From assembly GCF_041053055.1 (NCBI RefSeq), contig NZ_CP163443.1, positions 9,841,001 through 9,905,000 on the forward strand: DNA of 64,000 nt, in the 5' to 3' direction. Below are positions 33,839 to 52,835 of this stretch, in pieces. Under the pieces are notes generated by a model that was not told the origin of the DNA, searched no databases, and saw only the letters and a program-made list of their open reading frames with translations. How positions within the stretch are numbered: the first letter of the stretch is position 1; each line of letters opens with the position of its first letter. The DNA comes from Streptomyces sp. R41. Lineage in GTDB: Bacteria; Actinomycetota; Actinomycetes; Streptomycetales; Streptomycetaceae. The position numbers and the translations under genes were made by a program.

Positions 33839-34005
33839 TTGAAAAGTTTCAATCCCGCCCGAGCGGCGCGCGTGTCTCGATCGCTCCATGACTGCGCCCC
33901 GCGGTCAGTTCTGTTGAATTCTGTCTGATAGTCGCGTTGTTGGAGTGGTGGACATGCGCCCCAGCCGCCACTACCTTCGCAGCCAGTTGAAGTGAAACGT
34001 TACAA
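33839..34005. promoter_or_regulatory. Predicted LacI-type operators before the rhamnosidase
   Basis: TTGAAA-ag-TTTCAA (33839-33852) is a perfect 6-2-6 palindrome. GTGAAA-cg-TTACAA (33992-34005) matches it at 10 of 12 arm positions and lies 32 bp before the GH78 start. Related sites occur at 45064-45077 and 45229-45242 in the rhamnose regulon. The LacI protein at 51810 is the likely binder. Confidence 0.65.
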
Positions 34006-34037
34006 CTCACTTCCTCCGAAGCCGAAGGGATGACGGC

Positions 34038-37000
34038 GTGAACGAGGCGACACACAACGAAGGAACAGGCAACGTCCGGCGCAGAACGGTGCTCACCACC
34101 GCGCTGGGGGCCGGAGCCGTGGCGATGGCCGGAGGAATCGGCACCGGAGGCTCGGCATGGGCCGCGCCGGCCTCCGACCGCACCTCCCTGACGGGGCTGA
34201 CGGTGGAACACCGCACGAGCCCACTCGGCGTGGACACGGACAAGCCACGCTTCGCCTGGCGCATGGCGTCCCCAGCCCGTGGCCGGCGCCAGACGGCCTA
34301 TCGGATCCTGGTGGCCACCTCGCCCGAGCGACTCACCCGTGCCCGCTCGGACGTGTGGAACAGCGGCCGCGTCGAGTCACCGGACTCGGTGGCGGTGCGC
34401 TACGACGGCAATCCGCTGCGCGCCTCGACGCGCTACTTCTGGACCGTGAGCGTGTGGGACGAGGACGGCCGCGCCGTCACCGGCGCGCCGCCCGCCCATT
34501 TCGAGACCGGTCTGCGCAGCACCGACGGCGTGTCGGGCTGGGACGGCGCGAAGTGGATCAGCATGGCGGGCAAGGCTCCGAACAGCGCGGGGGCGCCGCT
34601 GCTGCGACGGCAGACCGCGCTCAAGGGGCGGGTCCGCGAGGCCCGGCTCTACATATCGGCCCTGGGCGTCTACGACGCCTATGTCAACGGCCTCCGGGTC
34701 TCGGTGCCGCAGGGCGAGGGCAGCACGTATGAGCTGCTCACCCCGGGCTGGACCAACTACGACACCACCGTCAACTACATGACGTACGACGTCACGGAAC
34801 TGGTCGCGCGGGAGCGGCGGGTGACGCTCGCGGCGGTGCTCGGCAACGGCTGGTACAACTCCCGGATCAGCGAGGCGGCGACGGGCATCCCGGGACTGGA
34901 CGACAGCAAGTACTACGCGAAGGACGGCAACCCTCTCGCCCTCAAGGCCAAGCTGCTGATCCGGTACGCCGACGGGTCCACCCAGACCCTGGTGACCGAG
35001 CCCGGCGGCGGATGGAAGGCCACGGACGCCGGCCCGTACCGGAAGGACGACATCTACGACGGGCAGACGTACGACGCCCGCAGGGAACTTCCCGGCTGGT
35101 CGGCGAACGGCTTCGACGACTCCGACTGGGCGGAGGTGGAGGAGCACGGCTTCGGCGCGAAGTTCCCCGACGCGAAGCTCGTCGCCTACCCCGGCGAGAC
35201 AGCCCGGCTGATGGAGCAGTGGGACCGGCGCCCTGAGTCCGTCACCGTCTACAACCAGGTGGCCGGCGAGTCCACCAGCCCGAACGGCAAGGGCCACATC
35301 GTCGTCGACCCCGACCGGTCGGTCACCGATCCGAAGCAGGCGGCGAAGGCGGCCGTGACCCTGCGCACCGGGGACACCGCGGTCTTCGACCTGGGGCAGA
35401 ACATGGTCGGCGTCCCCCGCTACACCCTGAAGGGCCCCGCGGGGGCCGAAGTCGTGTTCCGCTTCGGTGAGATGCTCAACGACGACAGCGAAGGCGCCGA
35501 CGGACCGAAGGGCTCGGTCTACCTGGCCAACCTGCGCACCGCCAAGGCGACCAGCACCTACACCCTCAAGGGCGCGAAGGACGGCGAGACCCACCAGGAC
35601 TCGCTGACCTTCTACGGCTTCCGCTACGTCCAGGTGACCATCGCCAGCCCGGACACCACCGTCACGGTCTCCGCTGTCACGGGCAAGGTCGCCACCTCCG
35701 CGATCCGTGACACCGGCACGGTGACGACCGACAACGCGCCGGTCAACCAGCTGTTCAGCAACGTCCGTTGGGGCCAGCGCGGCAACTACCTGTGGGTGCC
35801 CACCGACTGCCCGCAGCGCGACGAGCGCCAGGGCTGGACCGGTGACACCCAGGTGTTCTGCAACACCGGCCTCTACAACGGCGACGCGGTCAACTTCCTC
35901 AGCCACTTCCAGGACACCCTGATCGAGTCGCAGAAGACTTACGGCGTCGACGGTGCCCAGTTCACCTGTATCGCGCCCGGTTCCCGGTTCGCCTTCCCGG
36001 CCCCGGAGAGCGGCTGGTCCGACGTGGGCGTGATCCTGCCGTGGACCGTCTGGCAGATGTCCGGCGACACCAGTGTCATCGACCGCAGCTGGTCGGCCAT
36101 GGCCAAGTACATCGACTGGATCCACGGCAAGTCGGGCGACTCGTACGCGGGTCAGGGCTCGGTGTTCGGCGACTGGCTGGCCTTCCAGAACACCAGCTCC
36201 CAGCTCATGAGCGATGTCTACTACGGTCACTCGACCCGCCTCATGGCCGACATGGCCCGTGCCACCGGACGAGACACCGAGGCCCGCGCGTACGACGAGC
36301 TCTTCGCGAACATCAAGCGCAAGTTCGTCGCCAAGTACCTCGGCACCGACTCCTCGGGCAGCCTCGTCCTCCGCTCCAGCCTCGGCAAGGCGTCGGAGGT
36401 GGGCGGCGCCGCTCCCACCGAGGACAACTCCCAGACCGCGCTGCTGTGGGCCCTGAAACTCGGCCTGTACGACACGCAGGTACAACGTCGCGAACTCCTG
36501 AGGCTGCTCGCGGAGAACATCGGGAACGACGCGGCCTACAAGAGCGCCCACCCGGACAGCACCCGCGTGCAGTACGCGGAGAACACGCTGTCCGTGGGCT
36601 TCCTTGGGGTGAACGTCCTCGCCCCTGTGCTGACCGACGAAGGCCGCGACGACCTGGCGTACAAGCTGCTCCATCAGGACGAGTTGCCCTCATGGCTGTT
36701 CTCGGTGAAGAACGGTGCCACCACCGTCTGGGAGCGCTGGAACTCGTACTCGAAGGCGGACGGCTTCGGCCCGGTCGAGATGAACTCCTTCAACCATTAC
36801 GCCTACGGCGCCGTCGTCGAATGGATGTACGAGGGCGTGGCCGGTATCGCCAAGGACCCGGCCCACCCCGGGTTCAAGCACTTCTTCCTCCAGCCGCACC
36901 TCGACCCCACCGGGAAGATCACGCAGGTGACCGGCTCGCATGAGTCACCGTACGGAGAGATCGTCAGCGAGTGGTCGGTGAAGGGGACGACGATGACCTA

Positions 37001-37187
37001 CCGGGCCGTGGTCCCGTCCAACAGCACGGCGACCCTGCGCATCCCCGCCACCGACCCCTCCACCGTCCGTGAAGGCAGGACGCCCCTGGCGCGGGTGCCC
37101 GGAGTCGAGTGCCAGGGCTTCGTGGACGGCGTGGCCGTCTACCGGCTGCCGTCCGGGGCCTACGAGCTGACTTCCGCCCTGGCCTGA
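34038..37187 (+). CDS. Secreted GH78 alpha-L-rhamnosidase
   Basis: 1049 residues. A Tat signal (RRRTVLTTALGAGAVAMAGG) is followed by an N-terminal Ig-like domain, the DUF-type beta domains, the (alpha/alpha)6 barrel with the active-site block PTDCPQRDERQGWTGDTQVF, and a C-terminal beta domain. NSFNHYAYGAVVEWMYEGVA is the typical late barrel helix. It removes terminal L-rhamnose from glycans or glycosides outside the cell. Its 3' end overlaps lutC by 28 bp, head to head. Confidence 0.93.
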   Translation: MNEATHNEGTGNVRRRTVLTTALGAGAVAMAGGIGTGGSAWAAPASDRTSLTGLTVEHRTSPLGVDTDKPRFAWRMASPARGRRQTAYRILVATSPERLTRARSDVWNSGRVESPDSVAVRYDGNPLRASTRYFWTVSVWDEDGRAVTGAPPAHFETGLRSTDGVSGWDGAKWISMAGKAPNSAGAPLLRRQTALKGRVREARLYISALGVYDAYVNGLRVSVPQGEGSTYELLTPGWTNYDTTVNYMTYDVTELVARERRVTLAAVLGNGWYNSRISEAATGIPGLDDSKYYAKDGNPLALKAKLLIRYADGSTQTLVTEPGGGWKATDAGPYRKDDIYDGQTYDARRELPGWSANGFDDSDWAEVEEHGFGAKFPDAKLVAYPGETARLMEQWDRRPESVTVYNQVAGESTSPNGKGHIVVDPDRSVTDPKQAAKAAVTLRTGDTAVFDLGQNMVGVPRYTLKGPAGAEVVFRFGEMLNDDSEGADGPKGSVYLANLRTAKATSTYTLKGAKDGETHQDSLTFYGFRYVQVTIASPDTTVTVSAVTGKVATSAIRDTGTVTTDNAPVNQLFSNVRWGQRGNYLWVPTDCPQRDERQGWTGDTQVFCNTGLYNGDAVNFLSHFQDTLIESQKTYGVDGAQFTCIAPGSRFAFPAPESGWSDVGVILPWTVWQMSGDTSVIDRSWSAMAKYIDWIHGKSGDSYAGQGSVFGDWLAFQNTSSQLMSDVYYGHSTRLMADMARATGRDTEARAYDELFANIKRKFVAKYLGTDSSGSLVLRSSLGKASEVGGAAPTEDNSQTALLWALKLGLYDTQVQRRELLRLLAENIGNDAAYKSAHPDSTRVQYAENTLSVGFLGVNVLAPVLTDEGRDDLAYKLLHQDELPSWLFSVKNGATTVWERWNSYSKADGFGPVEMNSFNHYAYGAVVEWMYEGVAGIAKDPAHPGFKHFFLQPHLDPTGKITQVTGSHESPYGEIVSEWSVKGTTMTYRAVVPSNSTATLRIPATDPSTVREGRTPLARVPGVECQGFVDGVAVYRLPSGAYELTSALA

Positions 37188-37828
37188 TCGCTCACCAGCA
37201 CCACCTCCAGGGTGCGTGGACCGTGCACCCCTTCGACCCGGTCCAGCTCGATGTCACTGGTCGCGGAAGGACCGGAGATCCACGTCAGCGGGCGGGCCGG
37301 GTCGAGGCGCTCCAGGGCCTGGGGGACCGAGGAGACGACCTGATCCGGGACGCGTACGACACAGATGTGGTGGTCGGGGACGAGGGTGATGCGGCGGCGG
37401 CCCTGGTCGGGGCCACCGTCCAGGACGATGGTGCCGGTCTCTGCGATGGCCACCGCGCACGCGGTGACCACGCTGTCGACCGCGTCCAGCTCGTGCGGCG
37501 TACTGCCGAGCCGGTCCGGGACACGCGTCGCATCGGTCGCCGCCAGCCAGGCCTCGTCCAGCCCCACCGGTGCGACCACCGTCTCCGCGCCGCGCTCGGT
37601 GAGCAGCCCGGCGATCGTCGCCGCCAACTCGCCGGCCTGGCAACGGTGCACGACCGCCCGATAGTCCGCCAGATTCTCGGCGAGCAGATCCACCGTCTCT
37701 GCGACACTCCGAGCGCCGTGCTCGCGCAGATAACTCCGGTCAACGGCCTGCTCGTAAGGCGTGTCGTCCTGTCGTACGTCCGCGATCGCGCGCCGTACCC
37801 GGCCCAGGATCACATCCCTGCTGCTCAC
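37160..37828 (-). CDS. lutC: Lactate utilisation protein C (LutC)
   Basis: 222 residues from GTG 37828, overlapping the lutB stop (GTGA). The LutC/YkgG (DUF162) fold shows RAVVHRCQAGELAATIAGLL..., ITLVPDHHICVVRVPDQVVS and GPSATSDIELDRVEGVHGPR. It is the third subunit of the LutABC L-lactate oxidation system. It sits last in the rhamnose operon. Confidence 0.9.
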   Translation of the reverse strand: MSSRDVILGRVRRAIADVRQDDTPYEQAVDRSYLREHGARSVAETVDLLAENLADYRAVVHRCQAGELAATIAGLLTERGAETVVAPVGLDEAWLAATDATRVPDRLGSTPHELDAVDSVVTACAVAIAETGTIVLDGGPDQGRRRITLVPDHHICVVRVPDQVVSSVPQALERLDPARPLTWISGPSATSDIELDRVEGVHGPRTLEVVLVSDQARAEVSS

Positions 37829-39303
37829 TTCGAGTCCGCCTTTCCGCCCTGCGTACGCTGCCACCAGTCGCGGAACGGCTCCGCGGGCACCGCCGGCAGA
37901 TCACGGCTCGCACTCCACGCCTTGCCGGGGCCCGGCAGCGTCCGCGGATGGAAGCGGCGCGTCCGCGACGCGAGCCGCTGGCCGGTGCGCAGCGCGCCGG
38001 GGTGACTGAACGCCCAGCGCGCCGCGCGCATCGCCGCCCGCTCGGCGGCATGCCCCTTCGCGGGCTTGAGGACGACCTTGTTGCCGTCCCGCGTCGTCAG
38101 ACCGCCCTCGACGACCCGTTCCCGCAGATGGACGAGGACTTCCGGGATGTCGATGGCGACCGGGCAGACCTCGTAGCAGGCGCCGCACAGCGAGGAGGCG
38201 TACGGGAGGGAGGCGTCGATCTCGCTCTGTATGCCTCGGAGTTGGGGGCTGAGGATGGCGCCGATCGGGCCCGGGTAGACCGAGCCGTACGCGTGGCCGC
38301 CCGCCCGCTCGTACACAGGGCAGACGTTGAGACACGCCGAGCAGCGGATGCAGCGCAGCGCCTGGCGGCCGACCTCGTCGGCGAGCGTGTCGGTGCGGCC
38401 GTTGTCGAGGAGGACCAGGTGGAAGGTCTGGGGGCCGTCCTCGTCCGTGGTGCCGGTCCATGTCGAGGTGTACGGGTTCATGCGCTCGGCCGTCGACGAG
38501 CGCGGGAGGGTCTGGAGGAACACCTCCAGGTCCTGCCACGTCGGCACGATCTTCTCGATGCCGACGACCGAGATCAGGGTCTCGGGGAGCGTCAGGCACA
38601 TCCGGCCGTTGCCCTCCGACTCGACGACGACCAGCGTGCCGGTCTCGGCGACCATGAAGTTGGCGCCGGAGATGCCGACCTTGGCGCGCAGGAACTTCTC
38701 CCGCAGGTGCAGCCGGGCGGCCTCGGCCAGCTCGGAGGGCGTGTCGGTCAGGCCCTCGGGGGCCGGGCGGCCCCACTCGCTCATCTCACGGGCGAAGATG
38801 TCCCGGATCTCGCCGCGGTTGCGGTGGATCGCCGGGACGAGGATGTGCGATGGCCGGTCCTTGCCCAACTGGACGATGAGTTCGGCGAGATCGGTCTCGT
38901 AGGCGCGGATGCCCTCCGCTTCGAGGGCTTCGTTGAGCCCGATCTCCTGCGTGGCCATCGACTTGACCTTGACGACCTCGCTCTCGCCCGTCATTTTGAC
39001 CAGCTCCGCGACGATCCGGTTGGCCTCGTCGGCGTCGGCGGCCCAGTGCACGGTGCCGCCCGCTGCGGTGACCGACTCCTCCAACTGCACGAGGTAGCGG
39101 TGGAGATGACGGAGTGTGTGGTCCTTGATCTGCTTGCCCGCCTCGCGCAGCGCGGCCCAGTCGGACACCTCGGCGACCGCCTTGGCGCGCTTGCTGCGGA
39201 TCGTGTGGGTGGCGTGGCGCAGATTGCCGCGCAGGGTGGCGTTGTGCACGGCTTCGTGCGCGGCCTCGGGGAAGGCCGGCATCCCGACGAAGGTCCCGCT
39301 CAT
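37825..39303 (-). CDS. lutB: Lactate utilisation protein B (LutB), iron-sulfur
   Basis: 492 residues. An N-terminal LUD domain (VKVKSMATQEIGLNEALEAE...GISGANFMVAETGTLVVVES) is followed by two 4Fe-4S clusters: CIRCSACLNVCPVY and CGACYEVCPV. With LutA and LutC it oxidises L-lactate to pyruvate. Its stop overlaps lutC's start, and it follows lutA by 28 bp. Confidence 0.94.
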   Translation of the reverse strand: MSGTFVGMPAFPEAAHEAVHNATLRGNLRHATHTIRSKRAKAVAEVSDWAALREAGKQIKDHTLRHLHRYLVQLEESVTAAGGTVHWAADADEANRIVAELVKMTGESEVVKVKSMATQEIGLNEALEAEGIRAYETDLAELIVQLGKDRPSHILVPAIHRNRGEIRDIFAREMSEWGRPAPEGLTDTPSELAEAARLHLREKFLRAKVGISGANFMVAETGTLVVVESEGNGRMCLTLPETLISVVGIEKIVPTWQDLEVFLQTLPRSSTAERMNPYTSTWTGTTDEDGPQTFHLVLLDNGRTDTLADEVGRQALRCIRCSACLNVCPVYERAGGHAYGSVYPGPIGAILSPQLRGIQSEIDASLPYASSLCGACYEVCPVAIDIPEVLVHLRERVVEGGLTTRDGNKVVLKPAKGHAAERAAMRAARWAFSHPGALRTGQRLASRTRRFHPRTLPGPGKAWSASRDLPAVPAEPFRDWWQRTQGGKADSK

Positions 39304-39331
39304 GTGCTCGGCTCCTCCACTGTGCTTGCGT

Positions 39332-40087
39332 TCATGTCAGCGGCTCCTCTTCCGTGCTCGCCAGGATCTCCGCGATGTGGACCGGCCGCATGCCCGTGTT
39401 GAGGCGGCCCATCGTGCCGCCGATGTGCATCAGGCAGGAGTTGTCGGCGGCGCACAGCACATCGGCGCCGGTCGACTCGGCGTTGCGCACCTTGTCGGCG
39501 CCCATCGCCGCGGAGACATCGGCGTTCTTGACGGCGAAGGTGCCGCCGAAGCCGCAGCACTCGTCGGCGCCGGGCAGCTCGCGCAGCTCGAGTCCCTTGA
39601 CGGCCTGGAGCAGCCGGCGCGGCCGGTCGCCCAGGCCGAGGCTGCGCAGGCCGTGGCAGGTGGGGTGGTAGGTCACCGTGTGCGGGTAGTACGCGCCGAC
39701 ATCGGTCACGCCGAGCACGTCCACCAGGAACTCGGTGAGCTCGTACGTCTTCGGTACGACCGGAGCCAGTGTCCTGGCCAGCGTGTCGCCACGCCCCTCG
39801 GCGCGCGCCCGCTCACCCATCCGCGGATACAGCTCCCGCACCATCGCCCCGCACGATCCGGACGGCGTCACGATCGCCTCGTACTCCCCGAATACATCGG
39901 AGAAATGCCGGGCGAGCGGCTCGGCCTCATGGCGATACCCGGTGTTGTAGTGGGCTTGCCCGCAACACGTCTGACCCATCGGGAAATCGACGTCCACGCC
40001 CAGCCTGGTCAGCAGTTTCACCACGGCGCGGCCGGTGTCCGGATACAGCGTGTCGTTGACACAGGTCAGGAACAGAGCGACACGCAT
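39332..40087 (-). CDS. lutA: Lactate utilisation protein A (LutA)
   Basis: 251 residues from ATG 40087. Two CCG (cysteine-rich) domains each bear the pair pattern: QTCCGQAHYNTGY and DECCGFGGTF, with HPTCH between. This is the Fe-S subunit of the LutABC oxidase. It follows rhaB by about 105 bp, with an inverted repeat in between. Confidence 0.94.
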   Translation of the reverse strand: MRVALFLTCVNDTLYPDTGRAVVKLLTRLGVDVDFPMGQTCCGQAHYNTGYRHEAEPLARHFSDVFGEYEAIVTPSGSCGAMVRELYPRMGERARAEGRGDTLARTLAPVVPKTYELTEFLVDVLGVTDVGAYYPHTVTYHPTCHGLRSLGLGDRPRRLLQAVKGLELRELPGADECCGFGGTFAVKNADVSAAMGADKVRNAESTGADVLCAADNSCLMHIGGTMGRLNTGMRPVHIAEILASTEEEPLT

Positions 40088-40128
40088 CGCAGCTCCTTGC
40101 TCTCGATCATCGGATGAGTGCTGGGGAC

Positions 40129-40149
40129 ACCCTGACACGCGTTCAGGGT
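40129..40149. promoter_or_regulatory. Inverted repeat before lutA
   Basis: ACCCTGA-N7-TCAGGGT is a perfect 7-7-7 repeat in the 105-bp gap between rhaB's stop and lutA's start. It could be a lutABC-specific operator (for example a GntR-type lactate regulator) or a weak terminator that trims the operon. Confidence 0.45.
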
Positions 40150-40192
40150 AGTGGGGGAGTAGGCGGCGGGCGCGCGCCAGGGGAGTCCTCGC

Positions 40193-41638
40193 TCACGCAC
40201 GGGTGAGCCGGTCCTCGGCGGCGCGCCACGCCGCCGTGTCACCCCGAGGCTCGTATCGCTTCAACGGCTGCGTGCGAGCGAGGAGTCGCCGCATCGACGT
40301 ACGGTCGCCCACCAGGCCGTGCGTCCGGGCCTGGACGAGGACGTTGCCGAGCGCGGCGGCCTCCGCGGGGCCCGCCACGACCGGCAGGCCGCAGGCGTCG
40401 GCGGTCAGCTGGCACAGCAGGGCGTTGCGGGTGCCGCCGCCGACGATGTGCACGACGTCGACCGGGTGGTCGGCGAGGGACTGGGCCGCGCCGATCGCCC
40501 GGCGGTGGGCGAGCGCGAGGGAGTCGAGGATGCAGCGTGTGACCTCGGCGGGTGACTCGGGCACCGGCTGCCCCGACTCCCGGCAGGCGTCGGCGATCCG
40601 GTCGGGCATCCGGCCCGGCGCCAGGAACACGGCGTCGCCCGCGTCCACGACGGACCGCAGTGGCGCCACCTCGGCGGCGGCAGACAGGAGATCTCCCAGG
40701 TCGGGGTGCCCCCATTCGCGTACGCACTCCTGGAGCAGCCACAGGCCCATGATGTTGCGCAGATAGCGGACCGTGCCGTCCAGGCCCAGCTCATTGGTGA
40801 AGTTGGCCGCCCGGCTCGCCTCGGTGAGCACGGGCGCGTCCAGCTCCAGCCCGGCCAGGGACCAGGTGCCGGTGCAGATGTACGCGAACCGTTCCCCGGT
40901 GGCGGGCACGGCGGCCACCGCCGAGGCGGTGTCGTGCGAACCGACCGTGGTCACCGGGACCGGGCCGGTGAGCCCGGTCTCCTCCAGCACGCGCGGCTGG
41001 AGCAGCCCCGCCGGGTCGCCGGGACGGCGCAGCGGCGCGAACAGCTTCAGGTCGATGCCGAGCCGCTCGGCCACGTCGTACGACCAGTCGCGGGTGCGCG
41101 GGTCGATCAACTGGGTGGTCGAGGCGTTGGTGAGCTCGGTGCCCGCCTCACACGTGAGCCAGTACGTCAGCAGATCGGGGATGAGCAACAGCCGTTCGGC
41201 AGAGGCGAGTTGACGCGTCGAGCGGGCCGCCGTCAACTGGTACAGCGTGTTGAACGGCGCGTACTGCAGCCCGGTCGCCGCGTACAGCTCGGCGGCGGGC
41301 ACAGTCGCCCACACCTTCTCCGCGACGCCCTCCGTACGCGCGTCCCGATAGTGCACCGGGTTGCCGAGCAGCGTCCCGTCCGCGTCCAGCAGACCGTAGT
41401 CCACGGCCCAGCTGTCGATGCCGACCGAGTCGACCTGCCCGGCCGCGCGCAGACCGTCGAGGACGCCCGCGTACAGCGCGAGGATGTCCCAGCGCAGACC
41501 CTCGGGGACCCGGACCGGCCGGTTCGGGAAGCGGTGCGCCTCGGCGAGTTCCAGGGTGTCGGGGCCGACGCGGCCGACCATGACGCGTCCGCTGGACGCG
41601 CCGAGGTCGACCGCGGCGTACGACTTCACAGCGGTCAC
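40193..41638 (-). CDS. rhaB: L-rhamnulokinase
   Basis: 481 residues of FGGY-kinase type. The N-terminal phosphate loop is DLGASSGRVMVGRV, with YAPFNTLYQLTAARSTR and the C-terminal ATP motif VHIVGGGTRNALLCQLTADA. It phosphorylates L-rhamnulose at O1. It starts 4 bp after the rhaD stop, so they are cotranscribed. Confidence 0.94.
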   Translation of the reverse strand: MTAVKSYAAVDLGASSGRVMVGRVGPDTLELAEAHRFPNRPVRVPEGLRWDILALYAGVLDGLRAAGQVDSVGIDSWAVDYGLLDADGTLLGNPVHYRDARTEGVAEKVWATVPAAELYAATGLQYAPFNTLYQLTAARSTRQLASAERLLLIPDLLTYWLTCEAGTELTNASTTQLIDPRTRDWSYDVAERLGIDLKLFAPLRRPGDPAGLLQPRVLEETGLTGPVPVTTVGSHDTASAVAAVPATGERFAYICTGTWSLAGLELDAPVLTEASRAANFTNELGLDGTVRYLRNIMGLWLLQECVREWGHPDLGDLLSAAAEVAPLRSVVDAGDAVFLAPGRMPDRIADACRESGQPVPESPAEVTRCILDSLALAHRRAIGAAQSLADHPVDVVHIVGGGTRNALLCQLTADACGLPVVAGPAEAAALGNVLVQARTHGLVGDRTSMRRLLARTQPLKRYEPRGDTAAWRAAEDRLTRA

Positions 41639-41642: not shown

Positions 41643-43682
41643 TCACCGAAGGAACGCGGCGGCGACGCCGGCGTCGACCGGGACGTGCAACCCCGTGGTG
41701 TGCGTCAAGTCTCCACCCGTCAGGGCGAACACCGCGTTCGCCACGTGCTCGGGCAGCACCTCCCGCTTCAGGATCGTCCGCTGGGCGTAGAACTCGCCCA
41801 GCTTCTCCTCCTCGATGCCGTACGTCGCCGCCCGCTGCGCGCCCCAGCCGCCCGCGAAGATCCCCGAGCCGCGGACCACCCCGTCGGGGTTGACGCCGTT
41901 GACCCGGATCCCGTGCTCGCCCAACTCGGCGGCCAGCAGGCGCACTTGGTGGGCCTGGTCGGCCTTGGTCGCGGAGTACGCGATGTTGTTGGGACCGGCG
42001 AAGACCGCGTTCTTGGACGCGATGTAGACGACGTCCCCGCCCAGCCCCTGCGCGATCATCACCCTGGCCGCCTCGCGCGAGACGAGGAAGGAGCCGCGGG
42101 CCATGATGTCGTGCTGGAGATCCCAGTCGCGGACCGAGGTCTCCAGCAGCGGCTTGGAGATGGAGATACCGGCGTTGTTGACCACCAGGTCGACCCCGCC
42201 GAACGCGAGTAGCGCCGCCTTGAACGCCTCGGCGATCTGCTCCTCGGACGTCACGTCGACGGTGACGGCCACGGCCTTGTCGGGACCGCCAAGCGCCGAG
42301 GCGACGTCCGCCGCGCCGTCCGCATTGAGGTCCGCGACCACCACGCACGCGCCCTCGGCAGCCAGTCGCTCGGCGATCGCCTTGCCGATGCCGCTGCCGG
42401 CGCCCGTCACCAGCGCGACCCGCGTCGCGAGCGGCTTGGGCTTCGGCATCCGCTGGAGCTTGGCCTCCTCAAGAGCCCAGTACTCGATGCGGAACTTCTC
42501 CGACTCCTCGATCGGCGCGTATGTCGAGACGGCCTCGGCACCGCGCATCACGTTGATGGCGTTGACGTAGAACTCGCCCGCCACGCGCGCGGTCTGCTTG
42601 TCCTTGCCGAAGGAGAACATGCCGACACCGGGCACGAGCACGATCGCCGGGTCCGCGCCGCGCATCGCGGGGGAGTCGGGCAGGGCATGCCGCTGGTAGT
42701 AGGCGGCGTACTCCTCGCGGTACTCGGCGTGCAGCTCCTTCAGCCGGGCGATCGCCTCGTCCAGGCCGGTGGCCGGCGGCAGATCGAGGACGAGCGGCCT
42801 GACCTTCGTCCGCAGGAAGTGGTCCGGGCAGGAGGTGCCGAGCGCCGCGAGACGCGGGTGCTCGGCGCGGGCGAGGAAGTCCAGGACGACGTCGGTGTCG
42901 GTGAAGTGTCCGACCTGCGGGCGGTCCTGGGAGGCGATCGCCCGGATGTACGGCGCCAGAGCCGCGGCCCGCTCCCGGCGGTCCGCTTCGGACAGCGCTT
43001 CGTACCCCTCGACGACCGGCCCGAACGGCTCCGCCTTCCCGCGCTCGGCGAGGAAGGCCTCGGCGGTGCGGATGATGTGCAGCGAGTTGCGCTCGCACTC
43101 CTCGGCCGTGGCGCCCCAGGCGGTGATGCCGTGCCCGCCGAGGACGCAGCCGATCGCCTGCGGGTTGGACTCCTTGACCGCCGCGATGTCCAGGCCGAGC
43201 TGGAAACCGGGCCGGCGCCAGGGCACCCACACCACGCTGTCCCCGAAACACTCGGCGGTCAGCTTCTCCCCGTCGGCCGCGCAGGCGAGCGCGATCCCGG
43301 AGTCGGGGTGAAGGTGGTCGACGTGCGGCGCGTCCACCAGCCCGTGCATCGCCGTGTCGATCGAGGGGGCCGCGCCGCCCTTGCCGTGCAGGCAGTAGTC
43401 GAACGCGGCGACCATCTCGTCCTCGCGCTCGACGCCCGGGTAGACGTCGACGAGCGCGCGCAGCCGGTTTAGCCGCAGAACGGCCAGACCGGCCTCGGTC
43501 AACGTGCCCAGATCACCGCCCGAGCCCTTGACCCACATCAGCTCGACGTCACCACCTGTCACGGGATCGGTGTCGGAGCCCTTCGCGGACGTGTTTCCGC
43601 CCGCGTAGTTCGTGTTCCGCGGATCGGCGCCGAGCCGGCGCGACCGGGCGAGGAGGGCGGCGGCTTCGGGATGGGGTGCCAT
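41643..43682 (-). CDS. rhaD: Bifunctional rhamnulose-1-phosphate aldolase / L-lactaldehyde dehydrogenase
   Basis: 679 residues. The N-terminal class II aldolase part (about 1-400) has LMWVKGSGGDLGT, DAPHVDHLHPDSGIALA and GGHGITAWGATAEE, with clustered His residues for the metal. The C-terminal SDR part (about 425-679) has VTGAGSGIGKAIAERLAAEG, NNAGISISKP and YSATKADQ (Tyr and Lys). It splits rhamnulose-1-phosphate to DHAP and L-lactaldehyde and oxidises the aldehyde to L-lactate. This is the RhaEW-type fusion. The SDR start GTG/ATG is not separate. Confidence 0.92.
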   Translation of the reverse strand: MAPHPEAAALLARSRRLGADPRNTNYAGGNTSAKGSDTDPVTGGDVELMWVKGSGGDLGTLTEAGLAVLRLNRLRALVDVYPGVEREDEMVAAFDYCLHGKGGAAPSIDTAMHGLVDAPHVDHLHPDSGIALACAADGEKLTAECFGDSVVWVPWRRPGFQLGLDIAAVKESNPQAIGCVLGGHGITAWGATAEECERNSLHIIRTAEAFLAERGKAEPFGPVVEGYEALSEADRRERAAALAPYIRAIASQDRPQVGHFTDTDVVLDFLARAEHPRLAALGTSCPDHFLRTKVRPLVLDLPPATGLDEAIARLKELHAEYREEYAAYYQRHALPDSPAMRGADPAIVLVPGVGMFSFGKDKQTARVAGEFYVNAINVMRGAEAVSTYAPIEESEKFRIEYWALEEAKLQRMPKPKPLATRVALVTGAGSGIGKAIAERLAAEGACVVVADLNADGAADVASALGGPDKAVAVTVDVTSEEQIAEAFKAALLAFGGVDLVVNNAGISISKPLLETSVRDWDLQHDIMARGSFLVSREAARVMIAQGLGGDVVYIASKNAVFAGPNNIAYSATKADQAHQVRLLAAELGEHGIRVNGVNPDGVVRGSGIFAGGWGAQRAATYGIEEEKLGEFYAQRTILKREVLPEHVANAVFALTGGDLTHTTGLHVPVDAGVAAAFLR

Positions 43683-45063: not shown

Positions 45064-45242
45064 CTGAAACGATTCAGCAGGCCGAAGCTATGAGCCCTCC
45101 GTAGGGCTGTCAAGCCCTCACGCAAATACCGCTCTCCGTGACTCGGTTGTGACCTTTGGCTATCGAAAATTTCGACCCGTACCCATTGACGTGACCTGCG
45201 CTACCTGCCTAACGTCCCGGCAACCTAGTTGAAACCTTTCAC
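45064..45242. promoter_or_regulatory. Divergent rhamnose promoter region with LacI-type sites
   Basis: CTGAAA-cg-ATTCAG (45064-45077) and TTGAAA-cc-TTTCAC (45229-45242) match the proposed operator TTGAAA-NN-TTTCAA. A promoter TTGACG (45186-45191), 18-nt spacer, TAACGT (45210-45215) points toward the ABC genes, with the 45229 site just downstream of its start. TCGAAA-a-TTTCGA (45163-45175) is a perfect palindrome of another type, resembling the CGAA-N-TTCG motif reported for the xylan-linked regulator BxlR. Confidence 0.7.
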
Positions 45243-45285
45243 GACGTCGTGAGGCCGACCCGCCCGCGTCGTTGAGGAGCCCCTA

Positions 45286-46803
45286 ATGACCCACCAGTCC
45301 GACGCGGGTCCGGCCCCCGTGCTGGCGCTCAAGGACATCTCGAAGTCCTTCGGCGCCGTACGAGCCCTGCGGGACGTGTCCCTGGAACTGTTCCCCGGCG
45401 AAGTGCACGCGCTCGCCGGAGAGAACGGCGCGGGCAAGTCGACCCTCATCAAGACGCTCGCCGGCGTGCACCGACCGGACGCCGGTCAGGTGCTGCTGGA
45501 CGGCGAACCCACCGTCTTCCACGGTCCCGCCGACGCCCGCGACGCGGGCATCGCGGTGATCTACCAGGAGCCCACGCTCTTCCCCGACCTGTCGATCGCC
45601 GAGAACATCTTCATGGGCCGCCAGCCTCGGCGGGCCCTCGGCCGTATCGACCACAAGGCCACCCACGCGGCGACCGCCGCCCTGATGAAGCGCCTCGGCG
45701 TGGAACTCGACCCCGACCGCCCGGCGCGCGGCCTGTCCATCGCAGACCAGCAGATCGTCGAGATCGCCAAGGCGCTCTCCTTCGACGCCCGCGTCCTGAT
45801 CATGGACGAGCCGACCGCCGCCCTCACCGGCAGCGAGGTGGCCCGCCTCTTCGGCGTCGTGCGCACCCTGCGTGAGCAGGGCTCGGCGGTGCTGTTCATC
45901 TCGCACCGGCTGGAGGAGATCTTCCAGATCTGCCGGCGGGTCACGACCCTGCGGGACGGAGCCCTGATCTCCAGCGAACCGATCGACGGCATGACCGAGG
46001 ACGACCTCGTACGCCGGATGGTCGGCCGCGATCTCGACGAGCTCTACCCCAAGCAGGACGTCGAGGCGGGCGAGGTCGCGCTGAGTGTGCGCCGCCTGAC
46101 CCGCGAGGGCATCTTCACCGATGTGTCGTTCGACGTGCGACGCGGCGAGATCGTCGGTCTCGCCGGGCTCGTCGGAGCCGGGCGCACCGAGGTCGCCCGG
46201 GCCGTCTTCGGCGTCGACCGCTGGGACGCCGGTGAGGTGGAGGTCGACGGCAGGAAACTGACGAACGGAGCGCCCTCCACGGCCATGGCCGCCGGGCTCG
46301 CCCTCGTACCCGAGGACCGGCGCGCCCAGGGCCTGGTGATGGACATGTCCATCGAGCGCAACATCGGGCTCACCGGGCTGCGGACGACGGTCAAGGCGGG
46401 CCTGATGGACCGCGGTGCCGAACGCAGCCGCTCGCTCGACTGGGCGGTCAAGCTCCAGGTGAAGTACGCGCGGATCGCCGACACCGTGTCGACCCTGTCC
46501 GGTGGCAACCAGCAGAAGGTCGTCCTCGCCAAGTGGCTCGCCACCGGCCCGAAGGTGCTGATCGTCGACGAGCCGACCCGCGGCATCGACGTCGGAACGA
46601 AGGCCGAAGTGCACCGGCTGCTCAGTGAGTTGGCCGCCGACGGCGTGGCCGTCCTGATGATCTCCTCCGACCTGCCCGAGATCCTCGGCATGGCCGACCG
46701 CGTGCTGGTGATGCACGAGGGCCGGCTCACCGCCGAGATCCCACGCACCGATGCCACCGAGGAAGTCGTGATGGCCGCAGCCACGGGGAGGGCAGCCGCA
46801 TGA
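45286..46803 (+). CDS. rhaT: Rhamnose ABC importer ATPase (RhaT/RbsA type, two NBDs)
   Basis: 505 residues from ATG 45286, after GAGGAG. NBD1 has Walker [11 protein letters not shown] and [19 protein letters not shown]2 has a degenerate P-loop (GLVGAGRTE) and a strong [18 protein letters not shown] signature with [12 protein letters not shown]. Such one-intact, one-degenerate pairs are typical of RbsA-like importers. It starts the divergent operon and overlaps the next gene's ATG. Confidence 0.9.
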
Positions 46804-47840
46804 CGGTGACCGCACCCAACCCCGCCCCCGCCGCCGAGGTGCCCAAGTCGAGCGGCACCCGGCTGGTGGACCGCGTCTTCAAGATGCGCGAACTCGCCAT
46901 CCTGCTCGTCTTCCTGGTGATGATCGCCATCACCCAGATGGGCAACAGCCAGTTCCTGTCCGAGCAGGGCATCAAGGACCTGCTGCTGAACGCGACCATC
47001 CTGGTGCTGGTCGCCACCGGTCAGTCGCTGGTCGTGATCAGCCGGAACGTCGACCTGTCGGTCGGTTCGACGCTGGGCATCAGCGCCTTCGCCGCCGGTA
47101 CCTATCTGCAGGGCGGCGGGAACTCCGTCGTCGCGGTGGTCCTGGCCGTGCTGCTCGGCATCGGCTGCGGACTGGTGAACGGGCTGCTCGTGAGCCTCGG
47201 TCAGGTGCCCGCGCTCGTCGTCACCCTCGGCACGCTCTACATCATCCGCGGCATCGACTCGATCTGGGTCGGGTCCCGGCAGATCACCGCGGCCGGCCTG
47301 CCGGACGGATTCATCGACTTCGGTTCCGGCGGTCTCTCGGCCGTGCCGTGGCTGGCGATGATCGCGCTGGCCGTGCTGGTCGCGACGGCGTACTACCTCA
47401 AGCACTTCGGCAGCGGACGCGAGCTGTACGCACTCGGCTCCAACCCGGAGGCCGCGCGGCTCGCGGGCATCCCCGTCCGCAAGCGGATCCTGACCGCGTA
47501 CACCTTCTGCGGAGCCCTCGCGGGTCTGGCGGGCGCGCTGTACCTCGCCCGGTTCGGCAACGTGGACTCCGGCACCGGCAACGGCTACGAACTCACCGTC
47601 GTCAGCGCGGTCGTGGTCGGCGGTGTCGTCTTCACCGGCGGCTCCGGCAGCGTCTACGGAGCCGCTCTCGGCGCGCTGCTCCTCACCTCCATCAACAGCG
47701 TGCTGCCGGCCCTCGGCGTCAGCTCTGTCTGGGTGCTCGCCATCAACGGCATCCTGCTCATCCTCGCCATCGCGGTCGACCGGATCGTGGCGCTGCGCGT
47801 GGCCTCCGCCCTGAAGAAGAGGAACGCCCGCCATGGCTGA
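46800..47840 (+). CDS. rhaP: Rhamnose ABC importer permease 1
   Basis: 346 residues, with about ten transmembrane segments and the CUT2 permease pattern [20 protein letters not shown] and [20 protein letters not shown]. It begins in the ATGA overlap of the ATPase stop, and overlaps the second permease by 8 bp. Confidence 0.9.
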
Positions 47841-48846
47841 CTCCGCTCTCGCGCGCGCCGTCCGCTGGGACACGGTCGTCGGCGCCCTCCTCATCGTCGT
47901 CCTGCTGCTGTCCTTCGGGACCGTGGACGGCTTCGGCAACGCCCTCAACCTGTCGTTCCTGCTCGGCAACACCCTGCCGATCGCACTGATCGCCCTGCCG
48001 ATGACCCTGCTCGTGGTGGCCGGGGAGATCGACCTGTCCGTCGCCTCCACGGCCGGCCTTTCCGGCGCGGTGATGGGCGCCCTGTGGAACCAGGGCATGA
48101 CGATCGAGGTGATCATCCCGCTGTGCCTGCTCCTGGGCGTGGTGTGCGGGCTGATCAACGGCCTGTTGGTGACCCGGCTCGGGCTGCCGTCCCTCGCCGT
48201 CACCATCGGCACCCTCGCCGCCTACCGGGGCATCGCGCAGATCGTGCTCGGCTCGGACGCGGTGACCGACTTCCCCACGCAGTACCTGGACTTCGCGGCC
48301 GGACGCATCGGGAACACCTTCCTCCCGCAGGCGTTCCTGCCCTTCCTGGTGCTCCTCGCGATCGCCGTGGTCGTGCTGCACGCCACGCCGTTCGGCCGCT
48401 CGCTCTTCGCGGTCGGAGCCAGCGAGGAGGCGGCCCGGTTCGCGGGCATCCGCGTCAAGCGGCACAAGCTGATCCTGTTCACCGCGACAGGATTCATGGC
48501 CTCCCTCACCGGCATCTTCTGGGCGCTGCACTACGCCAGCGCCCGCTACGACAACGCCACCGGTCTCGAACTCTCCGTCGTCGCGGCCGTGTTGCTCGGC
48601 GGCATCGACTTCGACGGCGGCAAGGGCACGCTCGGCGGCGCGGTCGCGGGAGTCTTCCTGCTCGGCGCGCTGCAGAACGTGATGAGCCTCCAGGATGTCT
48701 CCGCCCAGTCGCAGATCGTCGTCACCGGCGTCCTGCTCGTCCTGTCCGTGCTCGGCCCCCGGGTGGCACGGCAGATCTCCGTCGCGAGGGCTGGGCGCAG
48801 AGCCGCCTCGGCGCCGCTGCCGAAGGCGCCCACTCCGACCTCGTAA
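47833..48846 (+). CDS. rhaQ: Rhamnose ABC importer permease 2
   Basis: 337 residues of CUT2 permease, with EIDLSVASTAGLSGAVMGAL and GLLVTRLGLPSLAVTIGTLA. It is the partner of the first permease and is translationally coupled to it. The binding protein follows after 32 bp. Confidence 0.9.
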   Translation: MADSALARAVRWDTVVGALLIVVLLLSFGTVDGFGNALNLSFLLGNTLPIALIALPMTLLVVAGEIDLSVASTAGLSGAVMGALWNQGMTIEVIIPLCLLLGVVCGLINGLLVTRLGLPSLAVTIGTLAAYRGIAQIVLGSDAVTDFPTQYLDFAAGRIGNTFLPQAFLPFLVLLAIAVVVLHATPFGRSLFAVGASEEAARFAGIRVKRHKLILFTATGFMASLTGIFWALHYASARYDNATGLELSVVAAVLLGGIDFDGGKGTLGGAVAGVFLLGALQNVMSLQDVSAQSQIVVTGVLLVLSVLGPRVARQISVARAGRRAASAPLPKAPTPTS

Positions 48847-48878
48847 CCGCTCGCTCACCCTCGTAAAGGACGTACGCC

Positions 48879-49961
48879 ATGCGCAAGTCATCCATCCGCC
48901 GCAGCTGCGCGGCCCTCGCCGCAGTCACCTCGTTCGCCCTGGCGGCCACCGCCTGCGGCGGCACCACCAAGAACGATGTCAAGGAGGACAGCGGTTCGGC
49001 CGCCTCGGCCGGCAAGGCCGACCCCAACGCCGCCACCAAGAAGGGCCTGACCGTCGGCTTCCTGCCCAAGCAGGTCAACAACCCGTACTTCACCTCCGCC
49101 GACAAGGGCGGCGAGAAGGCCCTGACGGAGCTGGGCTCCAAGTACAAGGAGGTCGGCCCGAGCAGCGCCACCGACACCTCCGGCCAGGTCAGCTACGTCA
49201 ACACGCTGACCCAGCAGCAGGTCGACGCGATGGCCGTCTCCGCGCAGGACCCGGGCGCCCTGTGCACCGCGCTCAAGCAGGCGATGACGAACAAGATCAA
49301 GGTCGTCACCTACGACTCCGACACCAAGACCGACTGCCGCAACGCCTTCGTCTCGCAGGCCAGTGCCGAGGACCTGGGCCGCACCGAGGTGCAGCTGCTC
49401 GCCGAACAGATCGGTTACAAGGGCGAGATCGCGATCCTGTCCGCGGCGCAGACCGCGACGAACCAGAACACCTGGATCGACTTCATGAAGGACGAGCTGA
49501 AGGACCCCAAGTACAAGGACGTCAAGCTGGTCAAGGTCGCCTACGGCAACGACGACGCCCAGCAGTCCTTCCAGCAGACCCAGGGCCTGCTCCAGGAGCA
49601 CCCGAACCTCAAGGGGATCATCTCCCCGACCACCGTCGGCATCAAGGCGGCGGCCCAGTACCTGTCCGGCTCGAAGTACAAGGGCAAGGTCAAGCTGACC
49701 GGCCTCGGCACCCCCAACGACATGCGCAAGTACGTCAAGAACGGCACGGTCGAGGCTTTCGAGCTGTGGGACCCGGCGAAGCTCGGCGAGCTGGCCGCGC
49801 GTACCGCCGTGGCGCTGTCGTCCGGGCAGATCACCGGCAAGGAGGGCGAGACCTTCAAGGCCGGTGACATGGGCTCCTTCACGATCGGCAAGGACGGCGT
49901 GATCAGCCTGGGCAAGCCGACCGTCTTCAACGCGAAGAACATCGACCAGTTCAACTTCTAG
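48879..49961 (+). CDS. rhaS: Rhamnose-binding lipoprotein
   Basis: 360 residues with a lipobox (LAATAC) and the CUT2 periplasmic-binding fold: GLTVGFLPKQVNNPYFTSAD, KIKVVTYDSDTKTDCRNAFV, LKGIISPTTVGIKAAAQYLS. It delivers the sugar to RhaP/RhaQ. The family assignment comes from position and sequence style together. Confidence 0.9.
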   Translation: MRKSSIRRSCAALAAVTSFALAATACGGTTKNDVKEDSGSAASAGKADPNAATKKGLTVGFLPKQVNNPYFTSADKGGEKALTELGSKYKEVGPSSATDTSGQVSYVNTLTQQQVDAMAVSAQDPGALCTALKQAMTNKIKVVTYDSDTKTDCRNAFVSQASAEDLGRTEVQLLAEQIGYKGEIAILSAAQTATNQNTWIDFMKDELKDPKYKDVKLVKVAYGNDDAQQSFQQTQGLLQEHPNLKGIISPTTVGIKAAAQYLSGSKYKGKVKLTGLGTPNDMRKYVKNGTVEAFELWDPAKLGELAARTAVALSSGQITGKEGETFKAGDMGSFTIGKDGVISLGKPTVFNAKNIDQFNF

Positions 49962-49977
49962 TTCGGAGCGGTACTTC

Positions 49978-50298
49978 ATGCAGCGCGTCTGTTTCCTGCT
50001 CAAGGTCCGCGAGGACCGGCTCGACGAGTACCGCGAGCGGCACGCCGCCGTGTGGCCCGAGATGCTCGAAGCGCTCTCGGCCACCGGCTGGCACAACTAC
50101 TCGCTCTTCCTGCGCGAGGACGGCCTGCTGGTCGGCTACTTGGAGACCGAGGACTTCGCGGCCGCACAGGCCGGCATGGAGGCCACCGACATCAATGCGC
50201 GTTGGCAGGCGGAGATGGCGCCGTTCTTCGAGTCGCTGGACGGCGCCAGACCCGACGAGGCCATGAAGCCTCTCACCGAAGTGTTCCACCTAGCCTGA
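49978..50298 (+). CDS. rhaM: L-rhamnose mutarotase
   Basis: 106 residues, MQRVCFLLKVREDRLDEYRE..., with His22 in RHAAVWPEM, the position of the catalytic His in RhaM, and WHNYSLFLREDGLLVGYLET. It interconverts alpha and beta L-rhamnose so that the isomerase gets its anomer. Its presence confirms L-rhamnose as the operon's sugar. Confidence 0.94.
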   Translation: MQRVCFLLKVREDRLDEYRERHAAVWPEMLEALSATGWHNYSLFLREDGLLVGYLETEDFAAAQAGMEATDINARWQAEMAPFFESLDGARPDEAMKPLTEVFHLA

Positions 50299-50314
50299 CC
50301 AGGAGCTCCGCACG

Positions 50315-51733: not shown

Positions 51734-51809
51734 GCGTCGTTACCGGCGGGCACGCGGGTAATGTGATGGCCTGCCCGCCGCTTCTCGTTCCCCTGGAGGT
51801 TCCCGCCTG

Positions 51810-52835
51810 ATGGCCCAGTCGGTGGGTATCAAGGACGTCGCCCGTGCCGCCGGAGTCTCCGTCGGCACGGTGTCGAACGTGATCAACCGCCCTGACTCGG
51901 TCGCCTCCGAGACCCGGGCCCGCGTGCTGTCCGCGATCGACCGGCTCGGCTACGTGCGCAGCGAATCGGCGCGTCAGCTGCGGGCGGGGCGCAGCCGGAT
52001 CATGGGCCTGCTCGTCCTCGACATGGGCAACCCGTTCTTCGTGGACGTGGCGCGCGGCGCCGAGCGCGCCGCGCGGGACGCCGGGCTCGGCGTGATGGTC
52101 TGCAACAGCGCGCAGAGCTCGAGCGAGGAGGCCGACTATCTGTCGCTCTTCGCCGAGCAGCGGGTGCGCGGGGTACTGCTGACGCCCACCGACGCGAGCG
52201 GACGCAACATCGAGGCGTTCCGCCGCAACGGCATTCCCTTCGTGCTGGTCGACCGCGTCGCCGAGGGCACCACGGAGTGTTCGGTCTCCGTCGACGACGT
52301 GGCGGGTGGCGCGCTGGCCGTACGGCACCTCGTGGACGCCGGTCACCGTTCCATCGCGTACGTCAGCGGGCCGCCCGGACTGAACCAGGTCAGGGACCGC
52401 CGCACGGGCGCGCTGAACGCCCTGGCCGAGGCCGGACTCGGCCCGGACAGCCTGCGCGAGCTGCCCACCGAGCGCCTGGATGTGGCCGCAGGGCGCGACG
52501 CCGGCGCCCGGCTGCTTGGCCTCGCCGAGCGCCCCACCGCCGTTTTCTGCGCCAACGACCTGCTCGCGCTCGGCGTCCTGCAGGCCATGTACGCGGCGGG
52601 GGTCGGCGTGCCCGACGACCTGGCGATCGTGGGCTACGACGACATCGAGTTCGCGGCCGCCGCGGCCGTCCCGCTCACCTCCGTACGCCAGCCGGCCGTG
52701 ACCATGGGCGCCCTCGCCGCCGAACTGCTCCTGGAGGAGATCGAGACGGAGACCGCGCCGGCGCCGCACGAACACCGGCGGGTCGTGCTCCAGCCGGAAT
52801 TGGTGGTGCGTCGCTCGAGTCTGTCGGCGCGCTGA
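51810..52835 (+). CDS. LacI-family regulator of the rhamnose regulon
   Basis: 341 residues from ATG 51810, after GGAGG. The LacI helix-turn-helix is GIKDVARAAGVSVGTVSNVI and the sugar-binding domain follows, with GLLVLDMGNPFFVDVARGAE. It ends the divergent operon, so it probably represses it and the catabolic operon, binding TTGAAA-NN-TTTCAA-like sites until rhamnose or rhamnulose is present. Confidence 0.9.
   Translation: MAQSVGIKDVARAAGVSVGTVSNVINRPDSVASETRARVLSAIDRLGYVRSESARQLRAGRSRIMGLLVLDMGNPFFVDVARGAERAARDAGLGVMVCNSAQSSSEEADYLSLFAEQRVRGVLLTPTDASGRNIEAFRRNGIPFVLVDRVAEGTTECSVSVDDVAGGALAVRHLVDAGHRSIAYVSGPPGLNQVRDRRTGALNALAEAGLGPDSLRELPTERLDVAAGRDAGARLLGLAERPTAVFCANDLLALGVLQAMYAAGVGVPDDLAIVGYDDIEFAAAAAVPLTSVRQPAVTMGALAAELLLEEIETETAPAPHEHRRVVLQPELVVRRSSLSAR

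Follow-up and report, generated by a model that had tools for sequence, protein, structure and literature searches.

As judged from its sequence, the locus analysed here belongs to the known RhaR/RhaEW type of actinobacterial loci for L-rhamnose scavenging, and the lutABC genes that lie behind rhaB probably form a self-contained module with its own L-lactate-released promoter (a TAnnCT box plus a LutR-type palindrome), which read-through from the rhaI promoter would also reach.

The gene content and order of the rha/lut locus were confirmed in the window, i.e., the whole 64,000-nucleotide stretch of Streptomyces sp. R41 that was analysed (NZ_CP163443.1, positions 9,841,001 to 9,905,000). NCBIfam, Pfam and the coordinates bore out the arrangement described in the earlier note (rhaI, rhaD, rhaB, lutA, lutB and lutC on one strand, with a divergent rhaT-P-Q-S-M, lyase-like and LacI set and a GH78 gene), and each named gene was in its place and orientation. 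On the minus strand, rhaI (L-rhamnose isomerase, 43851..45011) scored 678 bits to TIGR02635 (cut-off 531), followed by rhaEW, the rhaD of the earlier note (41643..43682; TIGR02632, 1094 bits, cut-off 568), which encodes a 679-aa fusion of rhamnulose-1-phosphate aldolase and lactaldehyde dehydrogenase, and rhaB (L-rhamnulokinase, 40193..41638), for which TIGR02627 was the best match though under its curated cut-off (469 bits against 528). With the fusion and the isomerase over their cut-offs and the kinase alongside, the RhaEW pathway is present. The next three genes were lutA (39332..40087; PF02754, CCG, two stretches), lutB, an iron-sulfur protein gene (37825..39303; TIGR00273, 454.8 bits, cut-off 444.8; PF11870), and lutC (37160..37864; PF02589, LUD_dom). 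Since lutA gave no NCBIfam match over cut-off and lutC none at all, these two were assigned from Pfam and context; a LutB over cut-off with an adjacent CCG-domain LutA and LUD-domain LutC makes up the LutABC complex. Two starts were corrected by inspection: rhaI probably starts at a GTG at 45011, and lutA probably at an ATG at 40087 (MRVALF...), a start common to relatives, with the reading frame open to a GTG at 40138. The lutA start sets the rhaB-lutA gap at 105 nt.

On the plus strand, the sugar-ABC ATPase rhaT (45286..46803) and the permeases rhaP (46800..47840) and rhaQ (47833..48846) matched NCBIfam sugar-ABC families under cut-off and were named by context, and rhaS (48879..49961) matched the rhamnose-binding protein family TIGR02637 with 483 bits (cut-off 342). 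The mutarotase gene rhaM (49978..50298; TIGR02625, 67 bits, cut-off 99.6) is, like rhaB, a weaker assignment below the curated cut-off. It is followed by a BNR_4 gene (PF15892, 50315..51733), called lyase-like in the earlier note, and by a LacI-family regulator gene, candidate RhaR (PF00356 and PF13377, 51810..52835). At the other end, a GH78 alpha-L-rhamnosidase gene (34038..37187, plus strand) is convergent with lutC.

The GH78 protein matched five Pfam domains over cut-off, catalytic and flanking (PF17389, PF08531, PF25788, PF05592 and PF17390), and its closest solved relative was 3w5m, a "putative rhamnosidase". The BNR_4 protein aligned to FoRham1 (7esl) with an E value of 1.7e-32, and counting by hand in the alignment found His85, His105, Tyr150 and Arg166 of FoRham1 identical, as well as Ser170, Tyr202, Arg220, Asn275, Gln276, Arg331 and Glu381; Tyr26 is replaced by Phe. 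Going by the residue roles given for FoRham1, of polysaccharide lyase family 42, in the sections of PMC8377490 drawn on here, both proteins share the catalytic residues and almost all of the substrate-binding ones listed. FoRham1 is a fungal enzyme, whereas the BNR_4 protein is bacterial and lies within a rhamnose catabolic cluster, and it is predicted to be a PL42-type L-rhamnose-alpha-1,4-D-glucuronate lyase. Assignment of the gene to GH145 was rejected; the catalytic His48 of BT3686 is Tyr in the alignment to 5muk. Read by eye, both N-termini were Arg-rich and signal-peptide-like, that of GH78 being a Tat-like leader, so both enzymes look secreted.

By family, GH78 and the PL42-type lyase would free terminal rhamnose from mixed glycans. 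Because the lyase-like gene is PL42-type, likely targets are gum arabic or arabinogalactan, at their rhamnose caps, along with other rhamnosides. Rhamnose freed in this way outside the cell would be imported via the ABC importer with the mutarotase; by known enzymology, RhaI-RhaB-RhaEW would cut it to DHAP and L-lactate, and LutABC would oxidise the L-lactate to pyruvate. The earlier note had proposed a path from L-rhamnose polymer to pyruvate. Uptake, breakdown to DHAP and L-lactate, and LutABC are indeed encoded, but a polymer as the source is not indicated, the enzyme families pointing to terminal rhamnose on mixed glycans and not to a homopolymer. The extension of the RhaEW route to pyruvate by co-regulated L-lactate dehydrogenase genes is not new: Rodionova et al. 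(2013) had inferred it for Actinomycetales.

A LacI-family gene in the locus and a shared palindromic candidate operator before the rha genes point to a RhaR regulon. Allowing up to three mismatches, the RhaR-type pattern matched five times in the window, where 0.22 matches were expected, and four of the five lay at rhaI-rhaT or GH78. Two candidate operators are upstream of GH78, TTGAAAAGTTTCAA (33839..33852) and GTGAAACGTTACAA (33992..34005), and two are in the divergent rhaI-rhaT region, CTGAAACGATTCAG (45064..45077), with similar sites in relatives, and TTGAAACCTTTCAC (45229..45242), with the same site in many relatives. At least one such site (up to three mismatches) was found in 38 of 40 relatives' loci. 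At up to two mismatches the whole genome held four sites, three of them in the rhamnose locus, but this count was rejected as evidence of enrichment and only site placement is informative, because a reversed control pattern matched as often genome-wide (four forward and four reverse matches). The fourth site precedes a solute-binding-protein gene; the same run of genes encodes a permease and also a PcRGLX-type (PL26-like) protein. No RhaR-type site was found in the rhaB-lutA gap of the window or in that of any of the 27 relatives' loci with lutA. The claim that the position of lutABC places it in the same regulon is therefore supported only in part: RhaR-type sites lie at rhaI-rhaT and GH78, but the rhaB-lutA gap held a LutR-type palindrome instead.

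This palindrome, TCATC-N-GATGA (40107..40117), lies at -30 to -20 from the lutA ATG, and its exact form occurs at two sites in the 10.46-Mb genome; the other stands before a GH97 gene rather than one of lactate metabolism. Upstream of it is a -10-like box, TACCCT (40145..40150, minus strand; TAnnCT in relatives), at -63 versus the usual -40, 23 nt further upstream, so that the box starts 33 nt from the palindrome versus the usual 10. Inspection by eye revealed no -35 box in the gap of the window. A G+C-rich hairpin just past the rhaB stop was dropped as a terminator; its predicted folds vary from one relative to the next, and it is not followed by a T-run. For LutR, the operator described in print is TCATC-N1-GATGA, which lies downstream of the lutA and lutP promoters, and L-lactate is the effector (PMC11734750, in the part drawn on here). 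The same palindrome between lutA and a predicted promoter, placed from the conserved box, would fit LutR-type control of the operon in the window.

Upstream regions were compared among 44 lut loci with lutA of at least 62% identity; L057, L063, L067 and L068 fell below this threshold, and 13 of L030-L049, having no lutA, were left out. Among the 28 loci with lutA at least 87% identical (window included), the palindrome was exact in 14 and had at most one mismatch in 23, and TAnnCT was present within 140 nt upstream of lutA in all 28; only one of the 16 loci with lutA 63-75% identical had either palindrome or box. Mean pairwise identity was 0.89 for columns -42 to -18 versus 0.55 for columns -75 to -45 (14 rows), figures that are biased upward because the 14 and 8 rows of the comparison were chosen for TAnnCT at -40 or -41. 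In a whole-genome search of 40 linked genomes, chosen by the analyst from 80, exact TCATCCGATGA was found 826-864 bp before the LutB match in 28 and was absent at lutA in 12; 39 of its 67 sites were elsewhere. TAG and CTA are rare in such genomes. The reversed control contains both, and its single match in the 40 genomes was rejected as a yardstick.

It is also conceivable, but in our judgement unlikely, that a single transcript, started at the RhaR-controlled rhaI promoter, spans rhaI-rhaEW-rhaB-lutABC, the element at lutA being vestigial or a leader feature. The co-directional order, the short gap and the position of the nearest RhaR-type site, in the rhaI region, all suit a single regulon, and so does the published inference: in certain Actinomycetales and Rhodobacterales that have RhaEW, the RhaR regulons include lldD and lldEFG, which makes pyruvate the probable end of the pathway (Rodionova et al., 2013; PMC3870299, in the sections drawn on here). 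The element was also absent in more divergent linked loci (L026, L027, L029, L036, L039, L042, L044 and L049), in which lutA overlaps or nearly touches rhaB (gaps of -18 to 51 nt) and which look like plain operon structure. Against a single regulon stand the greater likeness of columns -42 to -18 in the preselected rows and the presence of the element, whole or partial, before lutABC without rha genes. Eight close lut loci lacked an intact rhaB; the box was kept in all eight, and the palindrome was found with one mismatch in four (L050, L051, L052 and L054) and with two in L065, while L053, L055 and L066 had the box and no palindrome. One lutABC locus with the element appears to have had most of the rha cluster deleted; L052 retained a RhaR-like gene and rhaB only as its 3' end (residues 374-479).

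Gene order was compared across Streptomyces, as the earlier note had proposed. Of 127 same-genus genomes with RhaEW, 93, this one among them, had the lut genes on the rhaEW strand and downstream of it (31 did not, 3 were undecidable); for 58 of 80 linked genomes the linkage was read from LutB position and strand alone. Such recurrence argues that the rha-lut grouping is not due to chance, and we consider it improbable that lutABC, as an ordinary lactate operon, is a chance neighbour of the rha genes, with rhamnose control no part of it. Its own promoter-like element, a lactate permease encoded at another place in the genome and free-standing copies within the same LutB clade, where free and linked LutB are interleaved (38 rows, support 100/99), would fit such an operon. 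However, besides the linkage across the genus, a second, distant lutABC lineage (LutB 59%) was also downstream of rhaB in L067, and another lut group was inside a fucose-type cluster in L060, a recurrent placement that argues for selection on deoxysugar-lactate coupling. The tree label "fuc" was assigned by the analyst to L056, L058-L061 and L063; L056 did not group with the others, and a fucose cluster was not seen there.

Under the favoured reading, a lutABC module with its own promoter, we infer that lutABC is more than the end piece of the rha operon, that its promoter is released by L-lactate, and that it can also be reached by read-through from the RhaR-controlled rhaI promoter. Lactate formed from rhamnose inside the cell would then induce the genes for its own removal, and lactate from outside could induce lutABC without rhamnose. 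A six-frame tblastn search gave no clear LutR orthologue among the 28 FCD-type GntR proteins of the genome; the top match to the LutR DNA-binding domain was 41.5% identical, and several more scored almost as well. No match to the palindrome at up to two mismatches was found in the 4.5-kb stretch around the lactate permease. The only near-full-length FMN_dh match in the genome was below the curated NCBIfam cut-offs and was rejected as lldD, an alternative lactate dehydrogenase; its closest solved structures were lactate oxidase and lactate 2-monooxygenase, and this protein is a possible second lactate sink. The suggestion of the earlier note that the cell may be spared from excreting lactate has to be set beside this protein and the lactate permease of the same genome.

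Similar systems have been described. The RhaR regulons of Actinomycetales share with this locus RhaEW, a LacI-type regulator, rhamnose-oligosaccharide genes, L-lactate dehydrogenase genes and pyruvate as the inferred end product, but the sections of PMC3870299 drawn on here mention neither a PL42-type lyase nor, ahead of the lactate genes, a LutR-type site or a promoter of their own. Bacillus subtilis, in the corresponding part of PMC11734750, has lutABC and TCATC-N1-GATGA downstream of a promoter, here of a promoter-like box; unlike in B. subtilis, lutABC here lies behind rhaB and a clear LutR orthologue was not found. A system from another phylum likewise has lutABC together with a rhamnulokinase gene, but lactaldehyde is handled in metabolosomes there, according to the part of the description drawn on here.

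For the genus, we tentatively propose, as a view somewhat short of even odds, that lutABC may be a mobile, self-regulated "lactate disposal" cassette placed more than once behind lactate-yielding deoxysugar pathways (two distant lut lineages behind rhamnose genes, a third group behind a fucose-type pathway), which keeps an ancient LutR-type operator shared with Bacillus; the locus would integrate two signals, rhamnose by way of RhaR read-through and L-lactate, the pathway's own product, at the internal promoter. The previously unlabelled BNR_4 gene gains a testable activity, in which rhamnose caps would be released from gum arabic or arabinogalactan. Genes that lie behind a catabolic gene are commonly taken to belong to its regulon; the conserved sequence before lutA, which suggests a second switch, counters this. 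If true, the locus would offer a directly testable case in which the last module of a catabolic operon responds to the end product of the pathway itself, and it would suggest that the LutR-type operator was retained across two phyla.

The genome is a single contig of 10.46 Mb (C1), and every gene named in the earlier note was recovered by NCBIfam and Pfam domain matches at 34.0-52.8 kb of the window (9,841,001-9,905,000). The minus strand carries rhaI, the RhaEW aldolase/dehydrogenase fusion (679 aa; rhaD in the earlier note), rhaB, lutA, lutB and lutC, while the plus strand carries an ABC importer (ATPase, two permeases and rhamnose-binding protein), rhaM, a BNR_4 protein and a LacI regulator; the GH78 gene and lutC are convergent. 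RhaI, RhaEW, RhaS and LutB passed their curated cut-offs, RhaB and RhaM scored under theirs, and the putative LutA and LutC assignments rest on Pfam domains and context.

RhaEW was over the cut-off in 127 of 199 same-genus genomes (own genome counted), and in at least 80 of the 127 LutB followed it on the same strand at a distance of 2.3-3.6 kb downstream. Twenty-two other loci from those 80 linked genomes were inspected: lut genes stood immediately behind rhaB in L010-L029 and L069, and a distant lut lineage stood about 1.1 kb behind rhaB in L067. The rha region was fetched for all 47 remaining RhaEW genomes (20 + 27), and lut genes were found behind rhaB in 6/20 and 7/27, two of the latter seven loci being truncated at a contig end and one having no lutC match. 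The gene-order comparison proposed earlier therefore bore out the linkage: the rha-lut arrangement is common in the genus, with lut genes downstream of rhaEW in 93 of 127 RhaEW genomes. The others comprised 30 without lut genes, three ending at a contig edge, and one (L031) with a lutA remnant (residues 16-131) behind rhaB at L031:7175-7525 and, over that stretch, neither a lutB nor a lutC match. In the available text of Rodionova et al. (PMC3870299), lldD and lldEFG are placed in RhaR regulons of some RhaEW-containing Actinomycetales and Rhodobacterales, and extension of the pathway to pyruvate is called probable; the metabolic reading of the coupling, with pyruvate as end product, is already published there.

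Variation in the locus lies in its extracellular genes: among 20 linked relatives (L010-L029), a GH78 orthologue faced lutC in 6 and a BNR_4 gene was present in 11. The GH78 protein has five Pfam domains of its family, and its nearest solved relative is 3w5m. The best match of the BNR_4 protein, described earlier as lyase-like, was the fungal PL42 enzyme FoRham1 (E 1.7e-32). Residues were compared by hand in printed alignments, with roles taken from the accessible part of PMC8377490: His85, His105, Tyr150, Arg166, Ser170, Tyr202, Arg220, Asn275, Gln276, Arg331 and Glu381 are kept, whereas Tyr26 is Phe. A GH145 identity was rejected, the catalytic His48 of BT3686 being replaced by Tyr. With the FoRham1 residues kept and the GH145 histidine lost, the protein is expected to be an L-rhamnose-alpha-1,4-D-glucuronate lyase, which would remove rhamnose caps from gum arabic/arabinogalactan; the "L-rhamnose polymer" of the earlier note was an overstatement of the substrate.

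Judged by LUD domain, lutB/lutC of the window are the only LutB/LutC pair found in the genome, and a second TIGR00273 match was counted. A third LUD-domain protein, an orphan 210 aa long (C1:9814267; L009:4211-4843), lies about 63 kb from lutC and gave no NCBIfam match. The genome also encodes a lactate permease and a single near-full-length FMN-dependent protein, which is closest to lactate oxidase and lactate 2-monooxygenase. LutABC is thus not the sole conceivable lactate sink, and the earlier suggestion that the cell can do without lactate excretion is tentative.

Candidate RhaR-type sites resembling TTGAAACGTTTCAA (up to 3 mismatches) lie upstream of GH78 (33839 and 33992) and in the rhaI-rhaT divergent region (45064 and 45229); a fifth match, at 17750, is away from the rha locus genes, and 0.22 matches were expected by chance in the window. 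Genome-wide, up to 2 mismatches, there were four sites, three of them at the rha locus. The fourth (C1:2117188; L007:7189) lies about 35 bp upstream of a solute-binding protein gene, followed by a permease gene, a 1.6 kb stretch and a PcRGLX-type (rhamnogalacturonan exolyase, PL26-like) protein, a run that is probably another RhaR regulon member. At least one site (up to 3 mismatches) occurred in 38 of 40 relatives' rha loci, those in L028, L036, L044, L046 and L049 falling only outside the places labelled by rule as upstream of rhaI. The pattern appears to fit the LacI-family RhaR regulon that the available text of PMC3870299 reports from Actinomycetales. The rhaB-lutA gap had no such site (up to 3 mismatches) in any of the 27 relatives' loci having lutA.

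Three features come before the lutA ATG (MRVALF...) in close relatives: a TAnnCT box near -40, TCATCCGATGA near -30, and then a ribosome-binding site. The LutR-type palindrome TCATC-N-GATGA (LutR operator of Bacillus: PMC11734750, available part) was exact in 14 and within one mismatch in 23 of 28 loci with lutA at least 87% identical, window included, and all 28 had one TAnnCT within 140 nt upstream of lutA. Among 16 divergent loci (63-75%), the palindrome at one mismatch plus TAnnCT was found in one (L064). A whole-genome search of 40 linked genomes of our choice gave 67 exact TCATCCGATGA sites; in 28 genomes one lies 826-864 bp upstream of the LutB match, and the remaining 39 sites are at other places. 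In the window the palindrome (40107-40117) keeps the usual position, but the putative promoter is less certain than in relatives because the TACCCT box starts at -63, displaced 23 nt; about 23 nt extra lie between this -10-like box and the palindrome (40118-40144). The own genome has two exact palindromes, one before lutA; the second (C1:7368015; L070:6016) precedes a GH97 gene by about 22 bp and has no obvious lactate link. The LutR DNA-binding domain (PDB 8PQM) was compared with 28 FCD-type GntR proteins, and the top-scoring match was 41.5% identical. The matches listed in the open-licence literature, as far as their text was available, held no report of a LutR-type promoter within a rha locus.

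The earlier claim that lutABC belongs to a single RhaR regulon through its placement behind rhaB stands in part, with RhaR-type sites at rhaI-rhaT and GH78, and is weakened by the separate element before lutA. More divergent linked loci do look like a plain operon of the kind pictured in the earlier note, lutA touching or overlapping rhaB and the element being absent. The element, whole or in part, also persists where rha genes are gone. Eight loci (L050-L055, L065 and L066) have close lutABC relatives and no intact rhaB within the fetched stretch; TAnnCT is kept in all eight, and the palindrome is at one mismatch in L050, L051, L052 and L054, at two in L065, and not kept in L053, L055 and L066. 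L052 has a RhaR-like gene (87%) that diverges from lutABC, with only the rhaB 3' end (residues 374-479) between them; the remnant region spans about 8.1-12.6 kb (oriented), and the stretch has no RhaR-type site. There the rha cluster appears largely deleted, with lutABC and its element retained. Such persistence argues that lut would not be controlled by RhaR alone, and we consider a single regulon rather unlikely.

Free and linked copies were interleaved in one clade of the 47-row LutB tree (38 rows, support 100/99), and across the tree as a whole the starred branches required the "linked" label to change at least five times. Mere neighbourhood of lutABC and the rha genes is still more doubtful, since linkage to rhamnose or deoxysugar genes recurs in distant lut lineages. 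L067 belongs to one of these (LutB 59%) and has a different palindrome, ATGGTCGGACCAT, before lutA, also found in L068; perhaps it is an independent rha-lut coupling with another regulator type. In a third group, lutABC is beside LacI, alpha-L-fucosidase, amidohydrolase, RhaM-like, MR_MLE and FAA-hydrolase genes in L060 and beside MR_MLE and FAA-hydrolase genes in L063; for L058, L059 and L061 the resemblance is limited to ORF sizes and weak matches. We take these fucose-type genes to be an L-fucose route to pyruvate and L-lactate. Recurrent linkage points to deoxysugar-derived lactate as the reason for the lut neighbourhood and, with the persistent element, favours dual control of lutABC, by RhaR and by its own LutR-type element, as the likelier arrangement.
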